DNA from: an uncultured Dysosmobacter sp.
GTDB taxonomy: Bacteria; Bacillota; Clostridia; Oscillospirales; Oscillospiraceae
DNA: 64,000 nucleotides
Assembly (NCBI RefSeq): GCF_947631635.1
Contig: NZ_CANRMB010000006.1
Location: 1 to 64,000 of the forward strand
Direction of reading: 5' to 3'
How positions within the stretch are numbered: the first letter of the stretch is position 1; every line of letters begins with the position of its first letter. The position numbers and the translations under genes were made by a program. The notes beneath the pieces are model-generated. The model worked only from the letters and a program-made list of their open reading frames with translations, did no database searches and was not told the origin of the DNA. Positions 352 to 6,687 of the stretch are shown one piece after another.

Positions 352-1230
352 TTATTGCTTCCAGTATTGCTCGACCTTCGTCTCGGCAACATGGGGAAGA
401 AGGTTGAACTGTTTCATGATTTTCTGAACCACGACTGCTTTCTCAATCTCCAGTTCCTTCAGCGTAGAAATCATGGCAGAAATGCCTTCTTCCCGGCCTT
501 CCTCCCGGCCTTCCTCCAGAGCGGCCATTCGGGTGTTGTAGTCATGAATCTCCATCACTTTTTCTTGGTCATACAATGTCACCATGATATCGGCTACCTC
601 CTTCTGCCTTGACGCCAGGATGGGGACTAGAACCCCCTCTTCCAAACACTGCCGGATAGTTGCTTCTACCGCCAGCTGTGTAGGCCCAAACACCCGCCGC
701 TGGTCATCAGCAATCCGGCAAAACCGGACATATTGATACACGATATCGTCCTTGCCGCCGGTATCCCCGCGAAGCACCTTTACCGCGACCTCCGCGCTAC
801 CGGCACCCTCATACAAATCGGAGAGGCGAAGCACATCGGGTACATTCTGCTTTCCTGTGTAGACGACATAGAGTTCCGGTCTTGGTACGGAAACCTTCTT
901 CGGAGCGTACAGATCCAGATTCTGTTCCTCTACATACTCCTTGTAGGTCGCTGCCAGGTAAAGAAGCATTCGCAGGGCCAAATTCACAGAAAATGTGGAC
1001 TGTGCCTCTACCAGGAGGATGAGTTTATCCCGGACAAGAACGCCCAAGTCATTATAGATCCCATTGGTCAGAATAGTGGCGAGCGTGACCAGCTTGAAAT
1101 CTTCTTCCCGCACATCGGTGTCCTCCGGATGGAGGGACAGGTACAGCTTCCGGGTGTACTCCGGCTCCTTAAAGATGTATGAGAAAAGGCTGTCCTTAAT
1201 GGTCCGCCTCATATCGGTCATATGCCTCAT
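352..1230 (-). CDS. Rpn-family PD-(D/E)XK nuclease / putative transposase
   Basis: The ~292-residue product resembles the Rpn/YhgA-like recombination-promoting nuclease family (PD-(D/E)XK fold). After MRRTIKDSLFSYIF it has the family core: NGIYNDLG with the metal-binding Asp, then LILLVEAQS as the E-x-Q half of the active site, then a helix with the YKEY motif. The C-terminus has the EEGREEGREEG repeat common in these proteins, followed by a helical tail. The start was placed at the ATG at 1230 after a G-run; in-frame ATGs at 1221 and 1212 are also possible. A longer frame to 1353 has no homology-like content. The gene stands alone on the minus strand. Family members promote RecA-independent recombination; the role here is unknown. 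Confidence 0.75.
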   Translation of the reverse strand: MRHMTDMRRTIKDSLFSYIFKEPEYTRKLYLSLHPEDTDVREEDFKLVTLATILTNGIYNDLGVLVRDKLILLVEAQSTFSVNLALRMLLYLAATYKEYVEEQNLDLYAPKKVSVPRPELYVVYTGKQNVPDVLRLSDLYEGAGSAEVAVKVLRGDTGGKDDIVYQYVRFCRIADDQRRVFGPTQLAVEATIRQCLEEGVLVPILASRQKEVADIMVTLYDQEKVMEIHDYNTRMAALEEGREEGREEGISAMISTLKELEIEKAVVVQKIMKQFNLLPHVAETKVEQYWKQ

Positions 1231-1396
1231 CCCCCCAGCTTGCTGCCTACCTCTATTATATCGTAAGTTTAGAGAAAATACAAGGGGCAATGCCGCAGGG
1301 AGGCGAATGCCAAATGGACGGCCACGTCTCCCGCGGATACGCCTCTCCACCAAATGGAGATGAAACCAATTAACAAGACGAATCTCATCTCGGGTA

Positions 1397-1983: not shown

Positions 1984-2053
1984 AGGAGCAATGATTTGTG
2001 ATGTCTCATCACACACTCAAAAAGCAGCTGGTGAAACCGCCAGCTGTTTTTTT
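1984..2053 (+). ncRNA. Candidate small RNA / attenuated leader upstream of the RT fusion
   Basis: The segment between the perfect promoter and the RT gene contains two hairpins. The first is TGTGATG/CATCACA with loop TCT (1997-2013). The second is a terminator stem of 9 pairs (2025-2033 with 2038-2046, tetraloop AAAC) followed by seven T. Transcription from 1949 should mostly stop at about 2053, giving a ~70-nt RNA, with read-through into the RT ORF. It could be an RNA partner of the RT or simply an attenuator. No known RNA family was recognised. Confidence 0.5.
2021..2053 (+). terminator. Intrinsic terminator between promoter and RT fusion
   Basis: The stem CAGCTGGTG pairs with CGCCAGCTG (one G-U pair), has an AAAC loop, is flanked by A-residues on the left and followed by TTTTTTT at 2047-2053. 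It sits inside the 5' leader of the RT gene, so expression of that gene needs read-through, anti-termination or another promoter. Confidence 0.75.
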
Positions 2054-2081: not shown

Positions 2082-4709
2082 ATGAAAATAACGACGTGGA
2101 ATGTCAATGGGATCGCCGCTTGCCGGCGGAAGGGGTTTCTGCGGTTCTTGGCAGACACCCGGCCTGATATCCTATGCTGCCAGGAAATCAAATCGCAGTG
2201 TGAGCTTAACACCCCAGGCTACAACCAAGTCTGGAATCCTGCCAAGAGATCTGGTTACTCCGGTTCCCTTGTTCTTACGCGGCGACAGCCCCGGTCTATT
2301 ACCCTGGGCTTTGACGCTGATGAGGATCTTGACGCCGAGGGACGTCTGATTGCACTCGAATATGCAGATTATTATGTGGTAAGTGTCTACGTACCCAATA
2401 CCAATCCGCATTCCGACCCGACTCGTCCGGAGTATAGGGCAAGGTGGGAGGCGGCGCTGCGCAAATATATCAAAGGGTTAGATAAACCCGCCATCCTCTG
2501 TGGCGATTTCAACGTGGCCCATACAGATCTGGACATCTATCCGGAGCACGAAAAGGGGCTCCTCCAACCGCTGGGGTTTGAACAGGAGGAGAGAGAGCGT
2601 TTTAATCTGCTGCTTTCCTGCGGATATGTAGATGCGTTTCGAGCTCTACACCCCACGAAAGAGGGGGTATATACCTGGTGGTCACCCAAAAACCACAATC
2701 GGGAGGCGAACCGCGGCTGCCGGCTGGATTATTTTTTGCTCTCGAATGAACTAGTGAACTGCGTCCAGAGTGTAAGCCACCATGTCAATACTGTCGCCTC
2801 TGACCACTGTCCGGTATCCATGGTTATCAGGCCGGCGATTAAGCCAAAGGATATCTCTAATGAAGATCTTGCTGTCATGTGGCACACAATAGACTGGCCA
2901 AAGATGGAAGATGCACTCTATCAAAAACAGATCAATCTGGCAGAGGCGGCGCATTATCGCGATTGGTCAGCCGTGAGTCAGATCCAGACGGAGATAGTCC
3001 ACTCATTTGCCGCCAAGGTTCTCGCTGTGCGTAACGTAGTCAATATGGACGGAGCTGCAGGTGTAGATAATGTGAAGTGGTCTACACCGGCTCAGATGAT
3101 GCAGGCAGCCCTGTCCCTGACTTCACGAGGGTACCACCCTCTCCCATACCGACACCATGAAATCGCGGACAGCGGCCATACACGCATCGTCCATATACCG
3201 GCAGCGCGGGATAAGGCAATGATGGCACTCTATGCCTTTTCTTTGGATCCCGTCGCGGAATCCACAGCTGACCATGGGAGTTTCTCTGCCCGCCGAGGCC
3301 GCTCAGCGTTGGATCTGCATGCATACCTAAGTCAGGAACTCAGTGGCCCGGATGCGCCTGGATTCATTGCAATAGTCGATGTGAAAGCCTATTACAGCAG
3401 CATAGTCCATGAGCGCCTCCTGACTTTAATCCCTATGGATAAGACAATGCTCAGGAAGTTCTTACAGGCGGGAGTCGTCCGGGATGGGCAGTTGTTCGAA
3501 ACCGACCAAGGTATCTCGCTTGGAACATCGCTCTCCCCCATCTTAGGCAACATGCTTTTGGACGGCCTGCAATCTTATCTCTATGATCACCTGTTCCCGG
3601 AAGGCCATAAAAGCCACGATGGAGGCCGTATGTTTCGTTTCGCTGATGATATTGCCGTCACGGCAAGGGACTATAAACAGGCCGCTCAAATCATGGAGAT
3701 TATCGGAGATTTCCTAGCAGATCGCGGGTTGAAGATCAATCACGATAAATCCTTCATTGCTAGTCTACGGGATGGGTTTGACTTCTTGGCCAGGCATTAC
3801 CGAGTGGTGAAGGGAATTCTCGAGATAACTCCTTCCACCAAATCCATCCAAAAAATTGAACGCGAACTATCTGACCTGATTCTCGGCCACAACGGGTCTC
3901 TGAGGACACTAATCGATTTAATCAATAAGAGGCTCAATGGATGGGCTACCTACCACCGCATCACAGATGCCTACATGGTCTTCCGGCATGTTGACGCTGT
4001 AGTTGAGGGACTGTTAGTACGAAGGATGTGCGACCGATACAGCCGGTGGCACCGAGATACAGTCCTCAATAAATTCTGGATAAAAGAAGACGGATATTAT
4101 GTATTCGCTCTCCCGGATGATCCAACGGTCAGGGTGACACGCCTGGCTCCCATCACTATTGTGCGGCATAAGCCCTGCCGGTTAAGTACCAATAGCTATC
4201 TGGACAACGATTATTACGCCTGGCTCAAGTACAAACGCGACACCCAAAAGAACAGCGGAAAGTATAAAGCTGTATGGCAGCGGCAGGGCGGCAAATGTGC
4301 TTACTGCGGACAACCCATGCTTGCCGATCAGGAGGTTGATGTGGTAGAGCGGATTCTGGGGCGGGGCCGCAGGCCGCAGAATCTCATGTACATCCATCGC
4401 CGGTGCGCCTATGACTCATTTTCGGGTTTGGATGATGTCACATTGGAGTCCATAGACCTTAACAACCTTCTCCAGGATGTCTTAGAAGAAACTCCGGCCG
4501 CCGAATCTCCCTACTTAGAATTGCAGGAGTTTTTCAGACTGACAGACAAATCCCCTATATCTCTTTCATTCCGCGAAATCGAACAAATCCTCGGTGACCA
4601 GCTGGACTGGGAGGCTTACTTTTATACTGCGTTCTGGTATGATGCCCAAGATGGGGGTATCACAACTCCTATGTGGGTTGAGGAGGGATTCCCTATCGAG
4701 ACTAATTAG
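2082..4709 (+). CDS. ExoIII/APE endonuclease - reverse transcriptase - HNH fusion protein
   Basis: An 875-residue single ORF starting at an ATG 5 nt after GGAGG. Residues 1-250 form a complete endonuclease/exonuclease/phosphatase domain of the ExoIII/APE type: N7 (TWNVNGI), E35 (CQEIKS), Y103, D142 and N144 (GDFNVA), D216, and D241-H242 (SDHCPV). Residues ~266-330 match the N-terminal RT domain of group II intron proteins. The RT palm follows, with D433 (VDVKAYYSS), RT4 at 477-486 (GISLGTSLSP in place of the usual QGG) and F520-ADD as the catalytic box. Residues ~560-680 form the maturase thumb (LNGWATYHR). Residues 739-775 form an HNH-like zinc site (CAYC ... NLMYIHRRC) that lacks the usual His-His pair. 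No intron RNA domain V was recognised nearby. An APE nuclease joined to an RT recalls eukaryotic non-LTR retrotransposons. Function (mobility, repair or defence) is unknown. Confidence 0.85.
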   Translation: MKITTWNVNGIAACRRKGFLRFLADTRPDILCCQEIKSQCELNTPGYNQVWNPAKRSGYSGSLVLTRRQPRSITLGFDADEDLDAEGRLIALEYADYYVVSVYVPNTNPHSDPTRPEYRARWEAALRKYIKGLDKPAILCGDFNVAHTDLDIYPEHEKGLLQPLGFEQEERERFNLLLSCGYVDAFRALHPTKEGVYTWWSPKNHNREANRGCRLDYFLLSNELVNCVQSVSHHVNTVASDHCPVSMVIRPAIKPKDISNEDLAVMWHTIDWPKMEDALYQKQINLAEAAHYRDWSAVSQIQTEIVHSFAAKVLAVRNVVNMDGAAGVDNVKWSTPAQMMQAALSLTSRGYHPLPYRHHEIADSGHTRIVHIPAARDKAMMALYAFSLDPVAESTADHGSFSARRGRSALDLHAYLSQELSGPDAPGFIAIVDVKAYYSSIVHERLLTLIPMDKTMLRKFLQAGVVRDGQLFETDQGISLGTSLSPILGNMLLDGLQSYLYDHLFPEGHKSHDGGRMFRFADDIAVTARDYKQAAQIMEIIGDFLADRGLKINHDKSFIASLRDGFDFLARHYRVVKGILEITPSTKSIQKIERELSDLILGHNGSLRTLIDLINKRLNGWATYHRITDAYMVFRHVDAVVEGLLVRRMCDRYSRWHRDTVLNKFWIKEDGYYVFALPDDPTVRVTRLAPITIVRHKPCRLSTNSYLDNDYYAWLKYKRDTQKNSGKYKAVWQRQGGKCAYCGQPMLADQEVDVVERILGRGRRPQNLMYIHRRCAYDSFSGLDDVTLESIDLNNLLQDVLEETPAAESPYLELQEFFRLTDKSPISLSFREIEQILGDQLDWEAYFYTAFWYDAQDGGITTPMWVEEGFPIETN

Positions 4710-4727
4710 ATATGACTTGTAGCGAAA

Positions 4728-5252
4728 ATGCATTTGAGATATTTGGTGCTTCATTTGATACCGGACGGTACGATCCAAGACTGTGTAGATGATACCATTC
4801 GGACAACCCAGGAGGTATATCCTCACCCCATGCCAGTGGCTCCGGCCAAGGAGACGGCATCTTTTATCCTGACGGCTATGCAGTTGATTCTCTATCTGCT
4901 TTCTGTAAATGCTGACATAGAGGATGAACCGCTGCCCGTCAAATCGGTTCGAACCGGGCCCAAAACAGTGAATATTATCAGGGACAAAGCCGGAGAGGTT
5001 TCCGCTAAACAGGTCGGAATCCGAGTCGGTTCCGCTCTTCGCAGGGCAACTTCTCACAGCCAACATGAAGCCAATGTCTCAGCAGTTCCAGGGAGCCATA
5101 AACGCCCTCATGCACGGCGAGGTCATTGGCACCACTATTGGACGGGTCCGAAGGACGGCAATCGTGAGTTGATCCTAAAATGGACTGCACCCACCTTCAT
5201 TCACCCGGAGAACGGGCAGGAGAATAGCATTGTCTTGTTTCCGGTAAAATAG
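4728..5252 (+). pseudogene. AcrVA2-like protein, apparently N-terminally truncated
   Basis: This 174-residue frame resembles the C-terminal part of the AcrVA2-like family. The visible patterns are a helix with ILYLLSVNADI and a basic tail with RGHWHHYWTGP followed by ELILKWTAPTFI. Family members are usually about 300 residues, so the N-terminal portion seems missing. The start codon at 4728 has no good Shine-Dalgarno, and the frame begins 18 nt after the stop of the RT fusion. The gene may therefore have been truncated by arrival of the RT module. AcrVA2 of Moraxella lowers Cas12a levels, but most homologues occur without Cas12a, so anti-CRISPR activity should not be assumed. The family call is from motif memory. 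Confidence 0.5.
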
Positions 5253-5634: not shown

Positions 5635-6687
5635 ATGTTCTTATACCGCTGTGACGGAGACATGCTCCGGGTTCAGAAGGACGGCAGAAGCTGGACAGCG
5701 GCACTGCCGGGAACACCGCCCAGCCATGGGGAGATCTGGGCCCATATCAGCGGAGATGAACGATATATAGCCTTTGGCAATCACCGGGGTGTCCGGGAGG
5801 AAACTCTGTCCGGGGCCAGCCGTTTGGATAGAGTCCATGGGATCTGGGTCTATGACCTGGATGCGGGCCGCCTGATGACAGTTCCCCACAGGGTCCAGCG
5901 GACCGATGTCTTTTGGGATATCATGTTTGATGCGGAAAATGCGCTGTATTACAGTGACGGCAATACCTTCTGGCGGTGGAGGATAGGCGCGGAGAGCGTG
6001 GAAAAGCTGTTCCGCTTTCAAAAGGTGAAGGGCGCGCCGATGGGACTGTGTGTCAGTCCCGGCGGCCGGGTCCTCTCTTATTACAAATACCGGGCGGATG
6101 AAAAGCGGCTCTTCCTGTATGACCTGGAGACCGGAGAGAGCCGGGACCTGCATATCTCCATCTTCTATTACGGTTGGCTGGATGAGGAGCATGTGGTGTG
6201 GACCAGGATGGGTGGCCTGAAGGTGCTGGATGTGAAGAGCGGAACGAATCGGACGCTCCTCCGGGATCACAAGGCCATCCTGAAAAGATGCGGCGGGGAT
6301 GACGCAGCCCGGATCAGCTGCTTTTTGCAGGAGGAAAGCGTCTTTGAAGACCTGGACCTGCTGGGAAGCCATGCGGGGCGCCTGTGGTTCAATCTCGTGC
6401 TGCGGAGCTTTCCCAGAGAGGAGCCGGGGGTGCTGGGGTTCCTAAAAAAGAAACGGGAGCCGCTGCTCCACGACGGCGTCTGGTCCGTGGGGCCGGACGG
6501 AAAAGAGCCGTGCTTTCACTACCAGGTACCGGAGGATTGCCGTCACGGATATTTCAGCAGGCTTTTCCGGCAGGGGAGCCTGTGCTGGACCGGCGGGGAT
6601 AACGTCTTCCGGTGCTGGGACGGCACGGACCGCCGGATGTTCCCATCCGGCTGGAAGCCGGTTTTTCTGCCGGGGGAATGCCAGTGA
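5635..6687 (+). CDS. Hypothetical protein, probable beta-propeller
   Basis: A 350-residue soluble protein with no signal peptide. It consists mostly of beta-strand-like repeats with recurring aromatic-acidic turns, for example SGDERYIAFGN, DLDAGRLMTV, SPGGRVLSYYKY, YDLETGESRDL and DVKSGTNRTLL. These resemble blades of TolB/WD-like propellers. The ATG at 5635 follows a GAGGGGG Shine-Dalgarno. No catalytic motif is visible and I cannot name a family. It is a single-gene unit upstream of the S24 repressor, whose operator array starts 37 bp after its stop. Confidence 0.6.
   Translation: MFLYRCDGDMLRVQKDGRSWTAALPGTPPSHGEIWAHISGDERYIAFGNHRGVREETLSGASRLDRVHGIWVYDLDAGRLMTVPHRVQRTDVFWDIMFDAENALYYSDGNTFWRWRIGAESVEKLFRFQKVKGAPMGLCVSPGGRVLSYYKYRADEKRLFLYDLETGESRDLHISIFYYGWLDEEHVVWTRMGGLKVLDVKSGTNRTLLRDHKAILKRCGGDDAARISCFLQEESVFEDLDLLGSHAGRLWFNLVLRSFPREEPGVLGFLKKKREPLLHDGVWSVGPDGKEPCFHYQVPEDCRHGYFSRLFRQGSLCWTGGDNVFRCWDGTDRRMFPSGWKPVFLPGECQ

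Follow-up and report, generated by a model that had tools for sequence, protein, structure and literature searches.

A Conserved Bacterial Fusion of an ExoIII-Type Nuclease With a Domesticated, Group II-Derived Reverse Transcriptase

We found that an uncultured Dysosmobacter sp. encodes, in one reading frame, an ExoIII/Xth-type EEP nuclease joined to a reverse transcriptase (RT) of group II intron descent, and that this fusion occurs patchily, as single-gene cargo in integrative elements and in variable chromosomal slots. The RT is domesticated, group II-derived and free-standing, without a ribozyme and without the HNH histidine pair, and strong purifying selection keeps the full-length relatives of the fusion as an accessory gene. 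Domesticated RTs derived from group II introns are known; what was not met in the literature searched is a conserved nuclease fusion on such an RT.

Fusion gene and domain organization

The window, as we call the whole 64,000-nt stretch of DNA that was analyzed, is the start of a contig in a 59-contig genome. The fusion gene and its adjoining features are as follows.

2082..4709, + strand: EEP-RT fusion gene, 875 codons, 3′-truncated relative to its family
2082..2831, + strand: ExoIII/Xth-type EEP nuclease domain with the full catalytic set (residues 1-250)
2880..3119, + strand: RVT_N, the N-terminal extension of group II-type RTs (residues 267-346)
3174..3788, + strand: RT fingers/palm, RVT_1 (residues 365-569)
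3510..3539, + strand: RT motif 4, GISLGTSLSP in place of the GTPQGGxxSP of group II proteins (residues 477-486)
3639..3650, + strand: FADD catalytic motif (residues 520-523)
3846..4079, + strand: GIIM maturase thumb / X domain (residues 589-666)
4296..4406, + strand: HNH remnant, CxxC...HxxC zinc ligands present, catalytic His pair absent (residues 739-775)
4515..4694, + strand: DUF7662-like segment, a sub-cut-off match (residues 812-871)
4697..4750, + strand: probable deletion junction; family homology stops at 4697, and the next ORF is missing the initial ~170 positions of its own family
4728..5252, + strand: downstream ORF corresponding to the C-terminal half of phrog_6160 (profile positions 170-318 of 322)

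The uninterrupted 875-codon ORF of the original prediction was confirmed at positions 2082-4709 (+ strand), running from an ATG start to a TAG stop with zero internal stops and encoding 875 amino acids. Pfam domains lie in the order Exo_endo_phos (residues 5-242, 5.5e-28), RVT_N (267-346, 2e-15), RVT_1 (365-569, 7e-19) and GIIM (589-666, 8e-10), so that the predicted maturase thumb was found as well. The NCBIfam ExoIII/Xth model, xth, matched at 237 bits (cut-off 99), and group_II_RT_mat reached 202 bits, below its cut-off of 300; the fold of the RT matched the intron protein of PDB 6me0. Upstream, a hairpin resembling a terminator (GCAGCTGG...CCAGCTGT, followed by a run of T) was read from the sequence at window positions 2024-2053, ~30 nt before the fusion start codon, and may be the end of an upstream transcript or an attenuator. 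Window positions 352-1353 (- strand) encode an Rpn-like recombination-promoting nuclease that scored 28.4 bits, below the family cut-off of 52.1.

All eight EEP residues that had been named as the catalytic set (N7, E35, Y103, D142, N144, D216, D241 and H242) were invariant across 10 aligned members, as were D433, D522 and D523 of the RT. At the position aligned with the Trp of the GWR motif of ExoIII/Xth enzymes, which we take to be W280 in APE1 numbering, the window's subclade has Cys or Ser and L158 has Leu, so ordinary AP-site recognition may be altered. The predicted FADD is present in the window copy, and FADD, YADD or LLDD was found in 17/17 clade rows read (L054 is too short), with YIDD in none. 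For RT motif 4, GTPQGGxxSP occurred in 8/8 intron rows read, while TPQGG was missing from 15 of 17 clade rows, these being the 15 that could be read. The window copy has SLG here; because QG is kept as SQG in L051, L156 and L157, loss of the XQG element is not general. This element is part of the RT active site with a role in dNTP binding, according to the accessible text of PMC12337344.

The zinc-type HNH domain of the original prediction stood in part. The zinc ligands are in place in the window copy (C739/C742 and H772/C775), and the zinc remnant was present in 14/14 fused rows; the catalytic His pair is missing, leaving an active HNH nuclease unsupported. Between the zinc pairs the intron protein of 6me0 reads EIHHI, and the fused rows read DVVER, EVIEK, EITEK and others. 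An En domain with the catalytic His pair is not present in every group II intron class; it is absent in the fused proteins. The pair is also missing from true introns, L052 and L057, so its loss is not specific to the fusion.

Full relatives are 932-962 amino acids long (947 in L061), and the window copy, whose 3′ end is a junction, stops ~75 C-terminal residues early. The missing end is present in L054, the most similar relative over the common part (71%), and was not found elsewhere in the window's own genome, which is 94% complete. A deletion joining two genes, real or of assembly, fits this 3′ end, and the window copy, being truncated, may have no activity. The downstream ORF at 4728-5252 is probably not a partner of the fusion; neither it nor the gene at 5635-6687, which encodes a 350-aa protein without a Pfam or NCBIfam match, had any match among 85 other genomes of the genus. 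The DUF7662-like segment scored 20.7 bits in the window copy against a cut-off of 26, which L045 passes at 32.2 bits; a weak resemblance to a winged helix was seen in the corresponding part of L061. A viral-collection contig (L160:2008-2265) encodes a small stand-alone protein related at 31% (E 2e-5) to the C-terminal region of the fusion.

Members and distribution

We counted 14 fused loci (window, L045-L051, L055, L061, L151 and L156-L158, with L159 uncounted) and one split locus, L056, with EEP and RT as separate genes that share 4 nt; the members are 38-59% identical to the window copy. An EEP domain was present in every clade member with a readable upstream side. Within the genus, full-length fusions occurred in 5/86 genomes as eight copies (three in G049, two in G011 and one each in G000, G035 and G048), and the ordinary ExoIII of the hosts is a separate gene, ~45% identical to the EEP domain. 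The family-level search of 400 genomes returned clade members in five (G000, G277, G356, G446 and G099), of which the G356 copy is split and the G446 and G099 copies end at contig ends, and the order-level search of 394 genomes returned them in four (G000, G277, G756, at a contig end, and G758). For the class (391 genomes) and phylum (398 genomes), the window genome alone had a clade member at the threshold used; the other five matches scored 240-284 bits with ORFs of 400-588 amino acids, versus at least 420 bits for clade members in the order search, and G990, the one of the five that was checked, has group II RNA. L061 comes from a named Clostridia MAG, and four fusions (L156-L159), two of them identical in sequence, lie in viral-collection contigs.

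Origin from group II introns

The predicted intron-like character of the RT was upheld by the RT tree (32 rows), in which 16 EEP rows, with L150 inside, formed one clade on a long stem (support 100/100) beside clostridial group II introns (86/77 for that neighborhood). This tree covers group II relatives, without G2L4, CRISPR-RT, UG, DGR or retron rows, and within that scope a test for an already described fused family placed EEP-RT in a clade of its own. The EEP tree (43 rows) likewise grouped all 15 EEPs, whether fused or split, in one clade (99/97), with an internal order broadly as in the RT tree, shifts of L158 and L055, and several long-branched rows. Because the EEP-RT rows form one clade in both trees, the fusion most likely arose once, and the split L056 copy, nested in both, probably broke apart later.

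Group II RNA was detected at Rfam gathering scores in 0/15 EEP-RT loci (window, L045-L051, L055, L056, L061, L151 and L156-L158) versus 13/13 relatives without EEP (L052, L057-L060, L152-L155 and L163-L166), which identifies the RT as domesticated. Of the features of a mobile group II intron, the RT and the X/thumb domain are present and ribozyme RNA around the ORF was not found. The protein thus belongs among G2L RTs in the broad sense of a group II-derived RT that has no ribozyme and keeps the maturase domain; the definition, in the domesticated sense, is that given in the accessible parts of PMC4244168 and PMC4424553 (section 31). In phage and viral-collection contigs we also noted RTs of the group II intron type (L163, from Pseudomonas phage phi3, and L168-L202); in phi3, intron RNA flanks the RT on both sides and a tRNA is adjacent. 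Group II introns had been considered absent in phage, as stated in the accessible text of PMC12350094.

Selection, carriers and flanking sequence

Whole-gene dN/dS was 0.04-0.06 in seven of nine pairs with defined dS, the other two being saturated; the window copy lies outside this test. The zinc part and the tail were also constrained, and the DUF7662 segment was the loosest (0.16 in L156/L157). Between L045 and L046, which share one genome, dS was 0.18 in the RT, compared with 0.75 for EEP and 1.2 for the zinc part, a pattern that resembles the one expected after gene conversion or recombination.

Large serine recombinases were encoded downstream in 8/14 fused loci in the sequence at hand (L045, L046, L047, L048, L051, L061, L156 and L157). 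Other carrier genes included a ParB-type gene and an integrase in L051, YqaJ and RecD2 genes in L156, and a relaxase in L055; no recombinase gene was seen in the ORF lists of L049 and L050. A YpsA (SLOG) gene lies upstream in 6/14 fused loci (L045, L047, L051, L061, L156 and L157); we rejected it as a partner and consider it probably part of the carrier elements, since it also occurs near the true intron of L052. L048 and L151 have a different upstream gene of ~400 amino acids, with only sub-cut-off sigma-70 region 4 matches in the case of L151. Y-family translesion polymerase genes lie at most 2 kb away in L055 and L158, the latter also with a YolD-like gene. In L158 (10458-17886), EEP-RT stands beside a match-less 949-aa protein, a GajB-like helicase, a BrxP/DndC-like protein and a class-V (cysteine desulfurase-like) aminotransferase, a group that is perhaps an undescribed defence or DNA-modification cluster.

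Comparison of genomes with and without the gene did not yield the clean insertion boundaries that the original prediction proposed to look for. In the two G011/G049 locus pairs compared, other sequence fills the slot in the gene-less genome without an exact boundary (4660 versus 600 unaligned nt for G011 L050 against G049 L235, and about 4.8 versus 2.8 kb for G049 L049 against G011 L251). Exact flanking repeats, sought as target-site duplications, were at most 9 nt long in 14/15 loci, the exception being a 12-nt repeat at L049, above the shuffle maximum of 10; apart from it, the fusion has no look of self-mobility. A conserved flanking ncRNA of the retron or DRT kind was sought in 400 nt on each side of 15 loci, compared pairwise, and matches (5/105 pairs upstream and 7/105 downstream) occurred only between close relatives. 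An RT-18 RNA was found on the contig of a partial clade member (L053:5444-5524) and was rejected as the ncRNA of EEP-RT; it adjoins a different RT gene (411 aa, RVT_1 67 bits).

Relation to known systems

The group II intron protein of PDB 6me0/8fli, which we take to be T.el4h of class CL/IIB, has the same kind of RT, and the RT of the fusion derives from such a protein; the fusion differs in having no cis ribozyme that we could find, no HNH His pair and no TPQGG, and in its N-terminal EEP domain and extra C-terminal part. Like the fusion, the G2L4 RT is group II-derived, ribozyme-free and free-standing, but it has YIDD, AQG and no D or En domains (PMC12337344, accessible text). The fusion, in contrast, has FADD, YADD or LLDD, mostly no XQG, a zinc remnant, the EEP nuclease and a C-terminal part; judged by its motifs, with no YIDD and the zinc region kept, it is not a G2L4 protein. 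ExoIII/Xth enzymes (XthA, 8igi; ExoA, 5cfe) differ from it by having no attached RT. RT-Cas1 fusions (Cas6-RT-Cas1, 7kft, E 1.2e-7) likewise join a group II-type RT to a DNA-acting enzyme, but their nuclease differs and their sequence is far more distant from EEP-RT than that of 6me0. APE-type non-LTR retrotransposons such as LINE-1 place EEP before RT, and the original prediction rightly saw this order in the fusion; the nearest relatives found for both domains are nevertheless bacterial.

The prediction that no such arrangement had been described in bacteria agrees with the literature matches listed, which come from the openly licensed literature and include no bacterial EEP-RT protein; an earlier description elsewhere is possible. 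Other RT fusions are known with nitrilase, primase, HEPN, McrA and Cas1 (PMC8934634, accessible text). The words exonuclease and Exo_endo_phos are absent from the main text of that paper, and exonuclease is absent from the accessible text of PMC4244168 and PMC12337344.

Possible function and rival explanations

We tentatively favor, from domain content and comparative sequence data, a DNA 3′-end processing and gap-filling enzyme that would nick or trim and then synthesize, in repair or defence. The fusion protein would act on DNA ends and nicks: its EEP domain would cut abasic or damaged sites, or trim 3′ flaps and blocked 3′ ends, and would thereby leave a 3′-OH, which the RT would extend on a DNA template by gap filling, strand displacement or microhomology end joining, while the zinc knuckle and the winged-helix-like C-terminal part would hold the substrate. 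One protein would thus combine steps that would otherwise be divided between a G2L4 RT and separate nucleases. Counted in favor of the repair reading are the domains and fold, the single fusion, the lack of group II RNA, the low dN/dS, the retention of EEP and RT together when split (L056), the absence of TPQGG in motif 4 and the Y-family polymerase neighbors in L055 and L158. Against it count the patchy presence (5/86 genus genomes), mostly in mobile elements, which is unusual for a repair enzyme, as well as the host's own separate ExoIII, the SQG of L051, L156 and L157, and the changed residue at the W280 position. ExoIII resection gives 5′ overhangs and MMEJ uses 3′ overhangs, which also counts against repair. 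As background, the accessible texts report that G2L4 RT acts in double-strand break repair (PMC12337344) and that in MMEJ nucleases remove tails before gap filling (PMC13015716).

An anti-phage defence RT encoded by a single gene and set off by infection is a real possibility by analogy with other defence-associated RTs; its EEP domain would nick or degrade invader DNA, its RT would make toxic or blocking DNA, or both. Such a role would suit a patchy single-gene cargo of variable slots and integrative elements whose members diverge and yet show low dN/dS among close ones, and it draws on neighbors such as type IIG/MmeI restriction enzymes, present as C-terminal fragments immediately downstream in L045 and L061, the GajB-like UvrD helicase and BrxP/DndC-like protein of L158, and a ParE/Phd-YefM toxin-antitoxin pair in L049. 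The best DRT model with a curated cut-off, NCBIfam Drt3a, nevertheless gave 29 bits for the window copy and 40 bits each for L061 and L158 against a cut-off of 200; PADLOC RT_UG17 scored 65 bits on the fusion, where PADLOC models carry no cut-off. A PADLOC scan of 20 chosen neighbors left 12 match-less, with broad helicases making up four of the other eight, and the absence across 15 loci of an ncRNA conserved beyond close relatives also speaks against defence. Nick-primed writing, in which the AP endonuclease would open a lesion or chosen site and the RT would write from an RNA supplied in trans, as RNA-templated repair or immunity, appears unlikely; if true, it would be a bacterial, non-mobile, independently reached counterpart of LINE-type target-primed reverse transcription.

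Besides the repair enzyme and the defence RT, both still viable, the original prediction offered a target-primed mobile element. We regard an APE-type retroelement, whose EEP would nick the target and whose RT would copy its own mRNA in LINE-1 fashion, as quite improbable: the domain order, the multiple copies in G049 (three) and G011 (two), and the L049 repeat point toward it, but no ribozyme, no flanking RNA conserved beyond close relatives and, in the 14 other loci, no target-site duplication was found. Furthermore, the closest within-genome pair, L045/L046, is 89% identical in DNA and sits in a shared integrative-element backbone; the 15 loci contain no second fragment; the genus has no partial RT copy above 36% identity, and the 36% one has group II RNA; and the two locus pairs exchange several-kb segments rather than a clean gene-sized insertion. 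Short EEP-like pieces (31-47% identity) do occur in a few genus genomes. A group II intron with a ribozyme too divergent for Rfam would accord with the clear intron descent of the RT but is very improbable given the contrast between the EEP-RT loci and their EEP-less relatives, the absence of hits even at E values as high as 5 for L061, L050, L158 and the window gene, and the extent of the DNA common to L045 and L046, which ends 13 nt upstream and 58 nt downstream of the gene and so leaves no room for a ribozyme common to both. An assembly or annotation artefact joining two genes might be suggested by the window's place at a contig start and its 3′ junction, but it is hardly credible for the fusion itself and was rejected: the same fusion recurs in 14 loci from several assemblies, among them whole genomes, the named MAG and viral-collection contigs, and with the split L056 these form one clade in both trees.

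Significance

Bacteria, too, place an AP endonuclease before an intron-derived RT in the layout of LINE-1, here with neither an intron nor signs of mobility. Should the two activities be coupled, a single polypeptide would both create its primer and elongate it, and the family would offer a directly testable model for the entry of RTs into DNA repair or defence, as well as a compact, naturally occurring nick-and-write enzyme that would be of practical interest.
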